Shown piece after piece: positions 26,251 through 41,157 of a stretch of DNA of 41,621 nucleotides. Where the stretch lies: the NCBI GenBank assembly GCA_030655055.1, contig JAURWH010000046.1, positions 1 through 41,621 of the forward strand, read 5' to 3'. Both the position numbers and the translations under genes were made by a program. The notes under the pieces were generated by a model that was given only the letters and a program-made list of their open reading frames with translations, did not search any database and had not been told where the DNA came from. The stretch comes from a bacterium (GTDB lineage Bacteria > Edwardsbacteria > AC1 > EtOH8). How positions within the stretch are numbered: position 1 is the first letter of the stretch; every line of letters starts with the position of its first letter.

Positions 26251-26649
26251 TTATTTTTTCAGGGCTGGCTTGGCGCCGGCCTTGATCCGCTTGGTGCCGT
26301 AGAGCGAGCGGCTCTTCTTGCGGCCCTCCACCCCGGAAGTGTCCAGGGTGCCGCGCACGATGTGATAGCGCACGCCGGGCAGGTCCTTGACGCGGCCGCC
26401 CCGCACCATGACGATGGAGTGCTCCTGCAGGTTGTGGCCCTCGCCCGGGATGTAGGACAGAATTTCAAATCCGTTGGTCAAACGCACCTTGGCCACCTTG
26501 CGCAAAGCGGAGTTGGGCTTCTTGGGGGTGGTGGTGTAGACCCGGAGACACACGCCCTTGCGCTGGGGGCACGAGTTGAGGGCCGGGGCCTTGGTCTTCT
26601 TGCGTTTGGAATTTCTTCCGGAGCGGATCAGTTGGCTGATGGTTGGCAT
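26251..26649 (-). CDS. rpsL: 30S ribosomal protein S12
   Basis: S12 monitors codon-anticodon pairing at the decoding site. The 132 residues start [20 protein letters not shown] and contain [20 protein letters not shown] and [17 protein letters not shown]. The two lysines altered in streptomycin-resistant mutants (TPKKPN and GRVKDLP) are present, so this is a sensitive-type sequence. GGAG lies six bases before the ATG. It is first in the str operon behind its own promoter at 26768-26797. Confidence 0.98.
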
Positions 26650-26698
26650 TAATTCTCCTTGCCCTAAAGATAATTTTTAAAGACAAAAATAGCCTTAT

Positions 26699-26726
26699 CC
26701 GGTTTTCATCGCCGCGACGAAAACGG
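26699..26726 (-). promoter_or_regulatory. Hairpin in the rpsL leader
   Basis: On the minus strand CCGTTTTCGTCG pairs with CGATGAAAACCGG around a three-base loop, with one G-U pair and one bulge. It lies in the 5' leader about 50 bases before the rpsL start codon. No T-tract follows it, so it is more likely a leader structure than a terminator. Confidence 0.55.
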
Positions 26727-26767
26727 AAATGTTTTGTCAAAAATTTTTGTAATCGATTGGAATCCCA

Positions 26768-26797
26768 ATTATATAATATTTACAGTATAAAAGTCAA
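26768..26797 (-). promoter_or_regulatory. Sigma-70-type promoter for the str operon
   Basis: On the minus strand a -35 box TTGACT (26792-26797) and a perfect -10 box TATAAT (26768-26773) are 18 bases apart. Transcription would begin near 26760, giving a leader of about 110 bases before rpsL. It lies downstream of the terminator that closes the restriction-modification cassette, so it can restart transcription of the ribosomal genes. Confidence 0.8.
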
Positions 26798-26971
26798 GAT
26801 GCTTTAACAATTATTTTGATAAATCTTTGGGATGGAAAAATAGTTCTTGTCAAAGTGAAAAAATGGTTGTTTTTTACGGTTTCTTAAAGAAATATTTTGC
26901 TTTTATGGCCGAATAGACCGATTAAAATCGTCATACATATAGTGCCCATAGGTAATCGAGATACCAGATAT

Positions 26972-27014
26972 TGAGTAAAATACAAAACGGGGCTTTGCAA
27001 GCAAAGTCCCGTTT
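26972..27014 (-). terminator. Intrinsic terminator after the restriction endonuclease gene
   Basis: A 13-bp stem (26985-26997 with 27002-27014, one G-U pair) with a 4-base loop is followed on the minus strand by a TTGTATTTTAC tract. The stem reads AAACGGGACTTTG / CAAAGCCCCGTTT. It lies about 93 bases past the endonuclease stop codon and separates the cassette from rpsL. Confidence 0.88.
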
Positions 27015-27106
27015 AATATCACCTTCCTTGGCATTATGTTCCAATATGGAACTATGTGCATTCTTCAACCCTCGGTAGTCCCCGGGAATCAACTATAACC
27101 AATAGC

Positions 27107-28048
27107 TTAATAAGGACCAAGGAATCTCTCACCATTAAAGTGTATTAAATGAGAAGGATTATCGGCAACCCACACCTCTGTTTCCCATGCTATATCTCCA
27201 AGATACCTTGCCATTATAGACCGATTAGGGAAGCAGGTAATAAATACAAGTGGTGCTTTTGATTTTGAAAATAAAGCAGCTAACTCTTCATGCCTTTTGC
27301 TGTCCACTGGACCATGGCTGGTGACAGATTCAACAAGAATCAACCACTTCTTTTCTTCATGGTATAATACCACATCTGGCATCTTGCCATGTGAATCAAT
27401 CTTAACACCTAAATTAGCCAAAAATTCCTCATCAAAATAGCCCCATTTATTGCCAGTGTCACCAGCATAGATTAATACACCACTAGGAACAAAACGAGAA
27501 GCAAACTCCTCAATAATCGCCTTAATTAATTCGTTATGCTTCCCAGGGCTTAATTTTATGTTCTTGCCCTTCGCCAACCGAACGGGAACAAGTTGATACG
27601 CTCGTTCACTAGCATAACGTTGGGCGAGGGATTTGCTTTGCGATAAATATTTACCCAATGCTGTCGGCCATCTCGAAGATCCGTAGGTACGCAGCAACAA
27701 TAGCATTTTAGGTGCTATTTGATATACCGCTTTGGGACTGTTAACGGATCGGGATGCGTCATCTGGATTATACAAAGCAATGCCAGCAGCAACGAACTGA
27801 TGGATTGTTTGTCTCCGAAATGTTTCTCGCGTATTGGGTTTATATTTTTTCCCATAATGAGATCGAGCCCAATCCATAATTGGTGTTATGCCAATCAAGG
27901 GGTTTTCTGCCTCAACCCATTTCTTACCAGGAGAGAGATTCAACAAGGCCAACAAACAAAGAGCGGAACGTTCATTCTGTTGGGCACGAGGCAATCCCAG
28001 AGAAGACAGAACCTTAAGGGAGGCAGAAATATTGCTTATTGGTCTCAT
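27107..28048 (-). CDS. Type II restriction endonuclease, BsuBI/PstI family
   Basis: The 313-residue protein matches the BsuBI/PstI restriction endonuclease family in length and layout. It has an N-terminal helical region (NERSALCLLALLNLSPGKKW; RETFRRQTIHQFVAAGIALYNPD). The C-terminal nuclease part carries GDTGNK (196-201) and PDVVLYHEEKKWLILVESV, with PD at 224-225 and E240 as the probable metal-binding residues. Characterised members cut CTGCAG; specificity here is inferred only. The ATG overlaps the methyltransferase stop (ATGA), so expression is coupled, with the methylase first. The gene is strikingly AT-rich beside its ribosomal neighbours, a sign of transfer. It appears intact. Confidence 0.88.
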   Translation of the reverse strand: MRPISNISASLKVLSSLGLPRAQQNERSALCLLALLNLSPGKKWVEAENPLIGITPIMDWARSHYGKKYKPNTRETFRRQTIHQFVAAGIALYNPDDASRSVNSPKAVYQIAPKMLLLLRTYGSSRWPTALGKYLSQSKSLAQRYASERAYQLVPVRLAKGKNIKLSPGKHNELIKAIIEEFASRFVPSGVLIYAGDTGNKWGYFDEEFLANLGVKIDSHGKMPDVVLYHEEKKWLILVESVTSHGPVDSKRHEELAALFSKSKAPLVFITCFPNRSIMARYLGDIAWETEVWVADNPSHLIHFNGERFLGPY

Positions 28049-29514
28049 AGTATGTCCTTAATTTCATTATCAACTGATTCTTGTGAAAATCGCTGTTGAT
28101 TCTTTGCCCATCTACCAAGTTTTTCCAAAAGCAACCGACTGGGATATTTAAGCTGCTTAAGGTCGGTAGCATTGACTTGTGTATGCCCGCTAAATTTACG
28201 AAAATGCTCATCAATAAGCGTCGAGTTCAAATAAACGGCCAATCCACGAGCGATCAATTCCGTAAGACCTTGCCTGGCATGATGGAACACGTTTAAATGA
28301 TTTTCAAAACCAATGTATTTTGAGTTAGATATATTCGGGGTTACAACATTAGCAACTATCCTTCGTTTTTCTTCTTTCGATGAAAATCTACGGGTCATAG
28401 TGTAATAACCATTGGGATATAGCCATTTCTTTGTTTCCGGGGTTAAATTTATTGCATTAGGTTTTTTACATGTTTTCTTTGGCCATTCTATCGATTTTTC
28501 TCCGAAATGACAAGGATAAAGCAAGGGGACCGAATGGGACGTGGGCATATCGGTGATAAATTGATCAACACGAAAATCCACCACAGGACCAGTGGATACT
28601 TCTATGTTAAGGTCAGCAAGAGTGTTATCAAACGGCAATGATGATGACGTGTTCAAACCGTTATGTACTGTTGGAATATGTATGAATCTTTCTTGATCGC
28701 CCGGATTAACAATGTTTGAAAATTGGTGTTCAGCAATATGATAGTCAATAAACTGATCATCCGTGGATGTAGATACGACTACATTTCCTTGGCGAGCAGA
28801 GCATTCAAGCAATATAACAACATTCTCTTGAAGAACCTTGTCATCCTTAAACGCCTGATCCCTAGAAATAAAAAGGTGAATATGTTTTAATGCCGCCTTC
28901 TTGAATATTAATTCACGAAAAGGCCGATAGTATGGGCCATTGCAAAAACTACGTGGGATTATCGCAACGATATGACCGCCAGGCCTCATTAATCCTATTG
29001 TCAGAGCAACAAACGCAGAATATAAATTAACGGTTTCTATGCCAACTTGTCGAAGTAAGTGACGATGACGCGAATCGCTATTAATTTTCCTGTATGGCGG
29101 ATTAAGTATGGCATGAGTATAACGAGGCCCATTGCCAAATGCCAGCATATGAGCAGCGTCTTCAATAAAATCATGTTCAAGTATATTAACTTTGCAACAG
29201 TGAGGATTTGCAAATATTGATAATGACTTATTTAAATGTTTCCGAAGGGTGCTATCAATTTCATATGCTGTAACCTCAATATGTTTGGCAGAAAACTCTT
29301 GCGACTTCCATCGATGTAAAAAAGCAGTTGCTAACGAACCAACCCCCGCACCGGCATCAAGCAGATGCATTGAAGCCTCGTTACCCACAGGAAATAATGA
29401 GGCCATATAATTGGCTATCGTACTGGGCGTCAGGAATTGGCCCAAATGGACTTTGGTCATGTGATCAAGCCCATTTGATGCTTCAATGCGTATTTGGTCA
29501 ATTTGAGTTAACAT
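28045..29514 (-). CDS. Adenine-specific DNA methyltransferase, M.BsuBI/M.PstI type
   Basis: This 489-residue protein is the modification partner of the downstream endonuclease. Motif X is GQFLTP (25-30), motif I is LLDAGAGVGSL (about 51-61, SAM binding) and motif IV is NPPY (138-141, N6-adenine transfer). The order X-I-IV followed by a C-terminal target-recognition region is that of gamma-class m6A methylases, as in M.PstI and M.BsuBI (about 500 residues). It starts about 20 bases after its promoter with no Shine-Dalgarno site, which suggests leaderless-like or weakly initiated translation. It has a low GC content like the nuclease gene. It would protect the host sites, probably CTGCAG. Confidence 0.9.
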   Translation of the reverse strand: MLTQIDQIRIEASNGLDHMTKVHLGQFLTPSTIANYMASLFPVGNEASMHLLDAGAGVGSLATAFLHRWKSQEFSAKHIEVTAYEIDSTLRKHLNKSLSIFANPHCCKVNILEHDFIEDAAHMLAFGNGPRYTHAILNPPYRKINSDSRHRHLLRQVGIETVNLYSAFVALTIGLMRPGGHIVAIIPRSFCNGPYYRPFRELIFKKAALKHIHLFISRDQAFKDDKVLQENVVILLECSARQGNVVVSTSTDDQFIDYHIAEHQFSNIVNPGDQERFIHIPTVHNGLNTSSSLPFDNTLADLNIEVSTGPVVDFRVDQFITDMPTSHSVPLLYPCHFGEKSIEWPKKTCKKPNAINLTPETKKWLYPNGYYTMTRRFSSKEEKRRIVANVVTPNISNSKYIGFENHLNVFHHARQGLTELIARGLAVYLNSTLIDEHFRKFSGHTQVNATDLKQLKYPSRLLLEKLGRWAKNQQRFSQESVDNEIKDIL

Positions 29515-29538: not shown

Positions 29539-29567
29539 ATTATAATTGGTAATCATCACATTGTCAA
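29539..29567 (-). promoter_or_regulatory. Near-consensus promoter of the restriction-modification cassette
   Basis: On the minus strand a perfect -35 box TTGACA (29562-29567) and a perfect -10 box TATAAT (29539-29544) are 17 bases apart. The start point would fall about 20 bases before the methylase ATG. An inverted repeat TGATTA...TAATCA straddles the -10 box (29537-29555), a possible operator. Confidence 0.85.
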
Positions 29568-29615
29568 TCTGATAATATACCTTAGGCATGACAATATTTT
29601 CCAATGCCATATAAG

Positions 29616-29654
29616 TCAAAACCAAGCCCCGCCAAACAGGTGTTGGCGGGGCTT
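29616..29654 (-). terminator. Intrinsic terminator after rpoC
   Basis: A perfect 12-bp stem AAGCCCCGCCAA / TTGGCGGGGCTT (29624-29635 with 29643-29654), 7-base loop, is followed on the minus strand by GGTTTTGACTTAT. It lies about 22 bases past the rpoC stop codon. The T-tract is modest, so some read-through into the cassette is possible. Confidence 0.85.
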
Positions 29655-29675
29655 TTGATTTGAATATGAAAATAA

Positions 29676-32600
29676 CTATTTCTCTGCCGGCTGTTCCTGG
29701 GGTTGCTCCTCCTCGATCTTGAAGTTGCGGTAGCGCCGGATCCCGGTCCCGGCCGGGATCAGCCGGCCCACTATCACATTCTCCTTTAAGCCCAGCAGCG
29801 GGTCCGATTTTCCCTGGACCGCGGCTTCGGTCAGGACCCTGGTGGTCTCCTGGAAGGAGGCCGCCGAGACCCAGCTGGAGGTCGACAGCGCGGACTTGGT
29901 GATGCCCATCAGCAGCGATTCGAAAGTGGCCGGACGCCCTCCCTCGTGCAGCACCCGCTCGTTCTCCTCGCGCACCGAGGCTTTGTCCACCTGGTCGCCC
30001 TCGATGTAGATGGTGTCGCCCGGATCCTGGACCCGCACCTTCTGCAGCATCTGGCGCACTATCACCTCGATGTGCTTGTCGTTGATGGCCACGCCGTTCA
30101 GCCGGTAGACCTCCTGGATCTCGTTGACCAGGTAGACCTGGACCGCGGCCGTGCCCCGGATCCGCAGGATGTCGTGGGGATTGATGGAGCCCTCCGTTAT
30201 CTTTTCCCCGGCCTTGACCTTGTCGCCGTCCCGGACGTAGAGATGCTTGTTCAACGGGATCAGATAGGCCCGCTCCTCGCCGTTCTCGTTGCGGACCAGG
30301 ACCGTTCGCTGGCCCTTGGCGATCTCGCCCAGCTTGATCCGGCCGTCGATCTCGGAGACCACCGAGGGATCGGCCGGCTTGCGGGCTTCGAACAGCTCGG
30401 CCACCCGGGGCAGACCGGCCGTGATGTCTCGGGTCTTGGATATCTCGCGCGAGGTCTTGGCCAGGAACTCTCCGGCCGCTATCACCTGCCCGTTCTGGGC
30501 CATGATCCGGGCCCCGATGGGGATGGGGTAGCTGGACAGGCTCTTGCCCCGCTTGTCTATGATGTTGATATGGGGATAAAGGTTCTTGTTCTTGTCCTTG
30601 CTCTCGATCACCACCGGACGGCGCATCCCGGTTATTTCGTCGAACTCCTCGGAGATGGTGACGTCGGGGATCATGTCGGCGAACTGGATGGCGCCGGAGT
30701 GCTCGGCCAGGATGACGGCGGTGTGGGGATCCCACTCGAACAGGGTGTCGCCGGGGGCCACCTTGGCTTGGTCGGCGGCCTTAAGCACCGAGGCGTAAGG
30801 CACGCTGTAGCGGGTCTTGGCCCCGGGTTTCTCGCCGTGGAGGATGATCTCGCCGTCGCGGTTGATGACCACCACCTCGCCGGTTTCCTTGGCGATGGTC
30901 TCCAGCGACTTGAACTCCAGGGTTCCCGGGATCTTGGCCGAGACCTTGGACTGGGCCGCGATCCGGGCCGCGGTGCCTCCGATGTGGAAGGTGCGCAGGG
31001 TCAGCTGGGTGCCCGGCTCGCCGATGGACTGGGCGGCCATCACTCCGGTGGCCTCTCCCATGTCCACTATCCGGCCGGTGGCCAGGTTGCGCCCGTAGCA
31101 CTTGCGGCACAGGCCGCGCTTGGCCTCGCAGGTCAGAACCGAACGGATCCGGATCTTCTCGATGCCGGCCTCGGACAATTCCTCGGCCGCGTCCTCGGTG
31201 ATCTCCTCGCCCGAGGACACTATCATCTCGCCGGTGATGGGGTTGATCACGTCCTCCATGGCCACCCGTCCCAGCACCCGGTCCCTAAGCGACTCGATGA
31301 TCTCTTCGCCTTCCTTGAGGGCGCCCCGGTCCTCGCCCATGATGGTGCCGCAGTCCTCTTCGGTGATGATGATATCCTGGGCCACATCCACCAGGCGGCG
31401 GGTCAGGTACCCGGCCTCGGAGGTCTTGAGGGCGGTGTCGGCCAGTCCCTTGCGGGCTCCGTGGGTGGAGATGAAGTACTCCACAATGGTCAGGCCTTCC
31501 CGCAGGTTGTTGATGATGGGGGTCTCGATGATCTCCTGTCCGGTCAGGCGCTTCTGGGGCTTGGACATCAGTCCCCTCATCCCGCCCAGCTGGCGCACCT
31601 GCTCCCGGCTGCCCCGGGCCCCGGAATCCAACATCATGAACACCGGATTGAAGCCCTGGCGGTCGTCGGCCAGACGTTTGATCAGGGCCTCGGTCACCTG
31701 GTTGTTGACGTGGGTCCAGGTGTCGATCACCTTGTTGTAGCGCTCGGTGTCGGTGATCACGCCCTTGCGGTACTGGCCCAGGATCTTCTCGGTGGCCTCG
31801 ATCCCCTTCTTGACCAGTCCCTCCTTCTCGGCCGGCACGATTACGTCGGAAAGGCTGATGGTCACCCCGGCCTGGGTGGCATAGGTGAAGCCCATCTTCT
31901 TGACCTCGTCCATGAACATGGCGGTCTTGAAGTTGCCCAGCTTGCGGAAGGACTGCATGGCCATCTTGTCGATGGCCTTCTTGTCCAAAGTATCGTTGAC
32001 GTAGCCCAGCTCCGGGGGAACTATCTGGTTGAAGATCACCCGGCCGGCGGTGGTCTCTATCTTGCGGTCGTTGACCTTGATCTGGATCTTGGCGTGCAGG
32101 GCCAGAATTCCGTTCTCGTAGGCCAGCATCACCTCGTTCTGGTCGGTGAAGGCCTTGCCCTCGCCCTTGACCCCGGCCCGGGGCTTGGTCAGGTAATAGC
32201 AGCCGATGACGATGTCCTGCCTGGGGGTGATCACCGGGCGGCCCGAGGCCGGCGACAGCACGTTGTTGGTGGAAAGCATCAGGGTGGCGGCCTCGATCTG
32301 GGCCTCGTAGGAAAGCGGCACGTGGACCGCCATCTGGTCCCCGTCGAAGTCGGCGTTGAAGGCCTCGCAGACCAGGGGGTGGATCCGGATGGCCTTGCCC
32401 TCGATCAGCACCGGCTCAAAGGCCTGGATGCCCAGGCGGTGCAGGGTGGGGGCCCGGTTCAGCAGCACCGGATGCTCCTTGACGATCTCTTCCAGGATCT
32501 CCCAGACCCCGGGCTTTTCCTTTTCCACCAGGCGCTTGGCGCTCTTGACGCTCTGGACGTAGCCTTTTTCCTCCAGCTTTTTCAGGATGAAGGGTTTGAA

Positions 32601-33734
32601 CAGTTCCAGGGCCATGCTCTTGGGAAGGCCGCACTGGTAGGGTTTCAGCTCGGGGCCGACCACGATCACCGAGCGGCCGGAATAGTCCACCCGCTTGCCC
32701 AGCAGGTTCTGGCGGAACCGTCCCTGCTTGCCGCGCAGGATCTCGGACAGGCTCTTCAGCTCGCGGTTGCCCCGGCCCTTCAGGGCCCGGGAGCGGCGTC
32801 CGTTGTCGAACAGGGCGTCCACCGCCTCCTGCAGCATCCGCTTTTCGTTGCGCAGGATGATCTCCGGGGCCCGCATGTCGATGATCTTCTTCAGCCGGTT
32901 GTTGCGGGTGATGACCCGGCGGTAGAGGTCGTTCAGGTCGGAGGTGGCGAAGCGCCCTCCCTCCAGCGGCACCAAGGGACGCAGGTCCGGCGGGATCACC
33001 GGGATGGCCGAAAGGATCATCCACTCCGGGCGGTTGCCCGACTTGCGGAAGGCCTCCACTATCCGGAGCCGCTTCAAGACGTTCTTCTTGACCTCGGCCG
33101 AAACCTCCAGCCTCAAGCGGGAGCGCAGTTCGGCCGACAGGTCGTCGATGTTGATCTCCTTGAGCAGTTCCCGGATGGCCTCGGCTCCCATATGGGCGAT
33201 GAAGTCCTTGCCGTATTCCTCCTCGGCCTTGATGCACTGGTCCTCGTTGATCAACTCCTTCTTCTTGAATCCCGAGGAACCGGGCTCGATCACGATGTAG
33301 CTTTCGTAGTACAGCACCCGTTCCAGGTCCCGGATGGAGACGTCCAAAAGCTGCCCGATCCGCGAGGGCAGGGACTTGAAATACCAGATGTGGGCCACCG
33401 GCACCGCCAGGTCTATGTGCCCCATCCGTTCCCGGCGGACCCGGGACAGTGTGACCTCCACCCCGCAGCGGTCGCAGATCACGCCCTTGAAGCGGATCTT
33501 TTTGTATTTGCCGCAGTTGCACTCCCAGTCCTTGGTGGGCCCGAATATCTTCTCGCAGAACAGGCCGTCCCGTTCCGGCTTAAAGGTGCGGTAGTTGATG
33601 GTCTCGGGCTTGGTCACCTCTCCCAGCGACCAGCCGTGTATGATCTCCGGGGAGGCCAGCTTCAGCTTGATGAAGTCGAAATCGGTGGCCCTGACCTCCA
33701 TCTCTCCGGTATTGGCAGTTCTTTCGGGGGTCAT
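29676..33734 (-). CDS. rpoC: DNA-directed RNA polymerase beta' subunit
   Basis: Beta' carries the catalytic Mg site. The 1352 residues include the N-terminal zinc motif (C72, C74, C87, C90 in ECNCGKYKK...VICDRC) and the absolutely conserved [15 protein letters not shown] with the three catalytic aspartates at about residue 461. The second zinc motif is [13 protein letters not shown], following EEDCGT. The chain ends in a short Glu/Gln-rich tail. AAGGAGG lies eight bases before the ATG, and the rpoB stop is three bases upstream. Length resembles Gram-negative beta' without large lineage-specific insertions that I could see. A terminator follows directly. Confidence 0.98.
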
Positions 33735-41080: not shown

Positions 41081-41157
41081 TGGCAGGCCAGGAGGGACTT
41101 GAACCCCCAGCATCCGGTTTTGGAGACCGGCGCTCTACCAATTGGAGCTACTGGCCT
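41081..41157 (-). tRNA. tRNA-Trp (CCA anticodon)
   Basis: On the minus strand the gene begins AGGCCAGTAGCTCCAATTGG, with acceptor stem AGGCCAG/CTGGCCT. The anticodon stem-loop CCGGTCTCCAAAACCGG carries the CCA anticodon. The T arm has GGGGGTTCAAGTCCCTCC. Discriminator G is followed by an encoded CCA (41081-41083). tRNA-Trp between rpmG and secE is a common bacterial arrangement, which supports the call. Confidence 0.97.

Follow-up and report, generated by a model that had tools for sequence, protein, structure and literature searches.

A predicted PstI-type restriction-modification operon between rpoC and rpsL, and a possible landing slot for defence genes upstream of rpsL

Among the described type II restriction-modification (R-M) systems, EcoGIII of Escherichia coli O104:H4 strain C227-11 is clearly closer to the system reported here than SdaI. 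For EcoGIII, CTGCAG is the site of both methylation and cleavage, and the system restricts lambda-like phages (PMC6602927). In a strain with the same R gene as C227-11, 98.8% of CTGCAG was methylated, compared with 0% in a sister strain without the gene (PMC3893438). PstI and BsuBI are further members of the same family, and SdaI (PDB 2ixs), which has the site CCTGCAGG, is the only relative with a solved structure. Defence hotspots between core genes are also known, from P. aeruginosa (PMC10250203) and from the defence islands of E. coli (PMC10121019). In both cases, related genomes have varied defence genes at the same core-gene junctions.

We analyzed a stretch of 41,621 nt (hereafter the window) from a source genome, G000. 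Two genomes of the same genus (G001 and G002), two of genus g2 (G003 and G006) and four of the sister genus g4 (G005, G007, G008 and G009) were compared with it, all belonging to one family. The window contains an intact two-gene type II R-M operon at 27107-29514 on the minus strand, with a methyltransferase gene (M) followed by an endonuclease gene (R). The features of the locus, all on the minus strand, are as follows.

26251..26649, minus strand: rpsL (S12), first gene of the str operon, intact; 97-98% identity in the same-genus genomes
26768..26797, minus strand: native promoter of rpsL and the str operon, TTGACT-18-TATAAT (11/12), conserved in 3/3 same-genus genomes
26984..27014, minus strand: terminator in the host flank, downstream of R and ahead of the rpsL promoter; marks the edge of the variable site
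27107..28048, minus strand: R, BsuBI/PstI type II restriction endonuclease, 313 aa, with a winged-helix N-terminal domain and a nuclease domain
28045..28048, minus strand: ATGA shared by the stop of M and the start of R, from sequence reading
28059-28054, minus strand: AAGGAC, ribosome-binding-like, upstream of R, from sequence reading
28045..29514, minus strand: M, gamma-type N6-adenine DNA methyltransferase of the PstI/EcoGIII kind, 489 aa, from Pfam, PADLOC and motifs
29539..29567, minus strand: cassette promoter TTGACA-17-TATAAT, sigma-70 (12/12 consensus positions)
29624..29654, minus strand: hairpin terminator 3′ of rpoC, 12-bp stem
29676..33734, minus strand: rpoC, intact; 99% identity to G001

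The first-pass annotation had described two open reading frames overlapping by ATGA, with a near-consensus promoter of their own, inserted between rpoC and rpsL without disturbing either. Our analysis agreed on each point. The frames run from 29514 to 28045 and from 28048 to 27107, the promoter at 29567-29539 matches the consensus perfectly, and rpoC and rpsL are both intact, with 99% and 97% identity to G001, respectively. About 25 nt separate the −10 box from the ATG of M, and no obvious Shine-Dalgarno sequence was seen upstream of this ATG. An identical ATGA overlap was found in an E. coli plasmid homologue, whose M is 54.8% identical. M would be transcribed first, from the cassette promoter, and translation of R is probably coupled to it through the overlap.

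The same annotation had the cassette bracketed by terminators. Compared with shuffled sequence, both hairpins have much stronger predicted folds (z = −4.5 for 29612-29662 on the rpoC side and z = −4.7 for 26968-27022 on the rpsL side), but the one on the rpsL side is part of the host flank and lies outside the cassette, because G001 has an equivalent hairpin (L044 11444-11477, where its homology to the window starts) next to a different insert. The rpoC-side terminator had no counterpart in G001 or G002. Two weak Rfam matches over it were both under the gathering score and were treated as chance.

R matched PF06616 (7.6e-64) and PF17728 (1.9e-50) over nearly its full length, and REase_II in PADLOC (3.8e-146). 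M matched MTase_II in PADLOC over residues 3-488 (1.6e-189) and the Eco57I-type methylase family PF07669 in Pfam (2.1e-9), and it carries motif I (D53-x-G55-A56-G57) and NPPY at 138-141. PF06616, PF17728 and a gamma-type adenine methylase liken the cassette, by domains and type, to the PstI and BsuBI systems. In alignments, M retained all 91 of the 91 residues that are near-invariant in its family, and R retained 92 of 96 when aligned with 112 R relatives. The putative active site of R (P224-D225, E240, T243-P247 and K251) showed zero deviation. The deviations were clustered at 266-272 (G266P, Y269F, V270I and A272C); two of them agree with SdaI, and G266P is unusual. In 104 of the 109 relatives having both genes, M immediately precedes R on the same strand. 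These comparisons bear out the earlier assignment to the BsuBI/PstI type, as R has both family domains and an adenine methylase lies beside it. By every testable feature the cassette belongs to the BsuBI/PstI type II systems, and its enzyme pair is ordinary, a normal PstI-like R-M. Judged from these sequence comparisons, it is very probably a complete type II R-M operon of the PstI/EcoGIII kind.

With the R protein of phage PPwrbA, R shares 69.7% identity, and the PPwrbA R gene is 100% identical in C227-11. The endonucleases belong to the same BsuBI/PstI family, although EcoGIII is prophage-borne in C227-11, whereas the present system is chromosomal and lies between rpoC and rpsL. SdaI is homologous to R over nearly the full length (4e-79 against structure 2ixs), but at 41% identity it is clearly farther than EcoGIII. 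Because R is so much closer to R.EcoGIII than to SdaI, CTGCAG is the best predicted site by homology. M would introduce m6A into a palindrome, which is most likely CTGCAG, and R would cut the same site in unmodified incoming DNA. An R-M system of this kind with another specificity, for example the 8-bp CCTGCAGG of SdaI, seems improbable. SdaI does share the winged-helix and nuclease architecture and is the only relative with a structure, but the R tree places it farther away than any other leaf, and an 8-bp site is not expected in R.

We also counted CTGCAG in whole genomes by pattern search. The source genome has 1254 sites, about 528/Mb, and the two sisters without the cassette have about 498 and 404/Mb. 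No depletion was found in the source genome relative to these two sisters, and avoidance of CTGCAG as a mark of long residence was therefore rejected.

R-M systems of this type are common. One genome scan gave at least 576 relatives, and further relatives were found on 142 plasmids, on 35 viral contigs and in three phages; relatives at about 60-71% identity are spread across many phyla. None of 20 related genomes, including both same-genus genomes, has a copy of the cassette. Its GC content is 40.4%, 18 points below the 58.5% of the rest of the window, and the cassette is thus AT-rich as first described. Comparatively, R-M systems at 90 other loci were on average 2.5 points under their flanks, and never 17 or more below. 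The absence from 20 relatives, the scattered relatives, the GC drop and the lack of CTGCAG depletion all fit horizontal acquisition by the source species from an unsampled donor, probably not an ancient event.

A viral or plasmid vehicle as the donor was considered and rejected. No donor was identified because R is at most about 71% identical, over the full length, to its plasmid and prophage relatives; two partial R matches among the mobile relatives reached 77-78% over about 100 residues. There is no integrase or transposase among the genes of the insert, and the cassette edges showed no convincing direct repeats or target duplications. Insertion linked to a tRNA was likewise rejected, as the only tRNA of the window is at 41081-41157 and none is near the cassette. 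With no integrase, transposase, tRNA or repeat borders, the cassette is not an integrase-driven genomic island.

In G001, rpoC and rpsL are 10.9 kb apart and the same junction holds a different insert, which encodes a C39-peptidase-like protein, a giant RHS protein of 2257 aa, a 139-aa protein without any family match and an AbiEi/AbiEii pair. Homology between G001 and the window extends from rpsL as far as the terminator near 27014, with 92% identity in the rpsL-side spacer, and then ends. Thus, the R-M cassette and the G001 insert end at the same host terminator. On the rpoC side, homology to the same-genus genomes ends at the rpoC stop codon, and the spacer between this stop codon and M has no similarity to G001 or G002. 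In G002, a truncated trypsin-like gene follows rpoC near a contig end, and divergent metabolic genes lie ahead of rpsL.

Several other observations were made in these two genomes. At L044 2377-9150 in G001, the RHS-repeat giant and the 139-aa ORF downstream of it recall a polymorphic toxin and, possibly, its immunity gene. A degenerate 55-bp duplicate of the 3′-end of rpoC lies at L044 1439-1493, about 500 bp past the true end of rpoC and between rpoC and the insert. It is followed by a hairpin-like sequence of its own and is a sign of an earlier rearrangement. In G002, an N6/N4 methylase and an MvaI/BcnI-family nuclease form a further type II R-M pair (L046 3056-4967), some 8 kb upstream of rpsL.

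The rpoC-rpsL junction had been said to host accessory genes only rarely. We tallied gene coordinates in 48 genomes from outside the family in which both genes were located. All 27 linked junctions were insert-free, with gaps of 15-534 bp, and in the remaining 21 the two genes lay on different contigs or far apart. The claim therefore holds outside the family, but inside it the site is variable. In genus g4, rpsL lies downstream of prfB, not rpoC, and an AbiEi/AbiEii pair was found directly upstream of rpsL in three of the four genomes (G005, G007 and G009). These pairs are 57-77% identical to each other, a degree of relatedness that would fit one acquisition, and they have no BLAST similarity to the pair of G001. 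AbiEii genes are rare in these genomes. The copy adjacent to rpsL is the only one in G005 and G007; G009 adds one weak match, and the total in G001 is three. The source genome itself has an AbiE pair near phosphate-transport genes (L187 3628-5159, contig C44), and its AbiEii shares 84% identity with the rpsL-adjacent AbiEii of G005.

It had also been proposed that an empty site could be found by aligning the junctions of relatives, which succeeded in part. G008 lacks AbiE, shares both flanks with the other g4 genomes and has an intact rpsL, so that it presents an empty site upstream of rpsL. Both g2 genomes have an rpoC-rpsL spacer of 570-590 bp without cargo. The source genus gave no empty rpoC-rpsL site.

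These comparisons raise the possibility that the spacer just upstream of rpsL is a family-specific, reusable landing slot for defence-type genes, to which we assign roughly an even chance. As in the hotspots of P. aeruginosa and E. coli, varied cargo was found between the same core genes (the R-M cassette in G000 and RHS plus AbiE in G001), with empty sites in the close relatives G008, G003 and G006. Unlike those hotspots, the present one would be a short spacer ahead of the str operon, without an integrase, seen in ten genomes of one family. Its cargo would comprise a PstI-type R-M system, two unrelated AbiE toxin-antitoxin pairs and an RHS polymorphic-toxin-like gene. The cassette would sit in this slot, with the end of rpoC on one side and, on the other, the terminator that precedes the rpsL promoter. 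As this terminator bounds the slot, transcription of the cassette would be insulated from the str operon. Whether this is a true slot for small defence modules, kept open because the strong pre-str terminator insulates an essential operon, is a question on which our opinion is evenly divided. Only the rpsL side is common to all cases, since rpsL follows prfB in the genus with the AbiE pairs. The slot reading draws on ten genomes of a single family, most of them fragmented metagenome assemblies, with about three independent cargo events among them; the slot was tested after the first case had been seen, and no mechanism of insertion is visible at the rpsL spacer.

A one-off chance insertion of an ordinary R-M system, with coincidental cargo in the relatives, would leave the identity of the cassette as it is and compete only with the slot. 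We regard it as possible, somewhat short of an even chance. R-M systems are mobile and common, the site has neither mobility genes nor repeats, and the genomes are few. However, G001 has a different defence-type insert at the same junction with homology starting from the same terminator, and the only AbiEii genes of G005 and G007, and one of just three in G001, lie in inserts ahead of rpsL. With about 2,000 spacers per genome, repeated chance hits on this one seem unlikely, a rough judgement on a spacer chosen after the fact.

The first-pass annotation had suggested that essential neighbours would make the cassette hard to lose. Type II R-M systems can cause post-segregational killing, and a selfish addiction cassette that essential neighbours stabilise through linkage would accord with a position between two essential operons. 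Nevertheless, a deletion between the two terminators could remove the cassette and leave both operons untouched, and none of the 115 inspected R relatives lies beside rpoC or rpsL, which implies that linkage to these genes is no habit of the R family. Locking by essential neighbours is unsupported, because the module is cleanly absent from the G008 spacer while rpsL is intact. We consider such a cassette very unlikely. Even less probable is an assembly chimera or a piece of a contaminant contig. The assembly is metagenome-like, with 238 contigs, and the GC step is strong, but native sequence flanks the cassette on both sides in a single contig, identity to G001 in the rpsL-side spacer is 92% as far as the terminator, and two independent mis-joins would be required. 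As native DNA is contiguous on either side, a simple mis-join appears unlikely.

If the spacer upstream of rpsL is indeed a landing slot, defence genes can turn over in front of one of the most conserved operons of bacteria without a visible integrase, and this turnover is tolerated as long as the terminator insulates the operon. It would follow that the spacer of a core operon equipped with its own promoter and preceded by a strong terminator can become a defence hotspot even in slow-changing neighbourhoods. Our literature search for a slot directly ahead of the str operon, or for insertion sites at rpoC/rpsL, found nothing relevant.

Two further observations concern the window outside the cassette. 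The rpsL leader (26650-26770), of about 118 nt, is near-identical in 3/3 same-genus genomes and contains the hairpin-like stretch TTTTCGTCGCGGCGATGAAAA; it had no Rfam match and may be a regulatory leader. The end of the contig (41433-41621) and the window from 22083 onwards align to one and the same part of the G007 tuf gene, and it was probably a second copy of tuf that ended the contig there.
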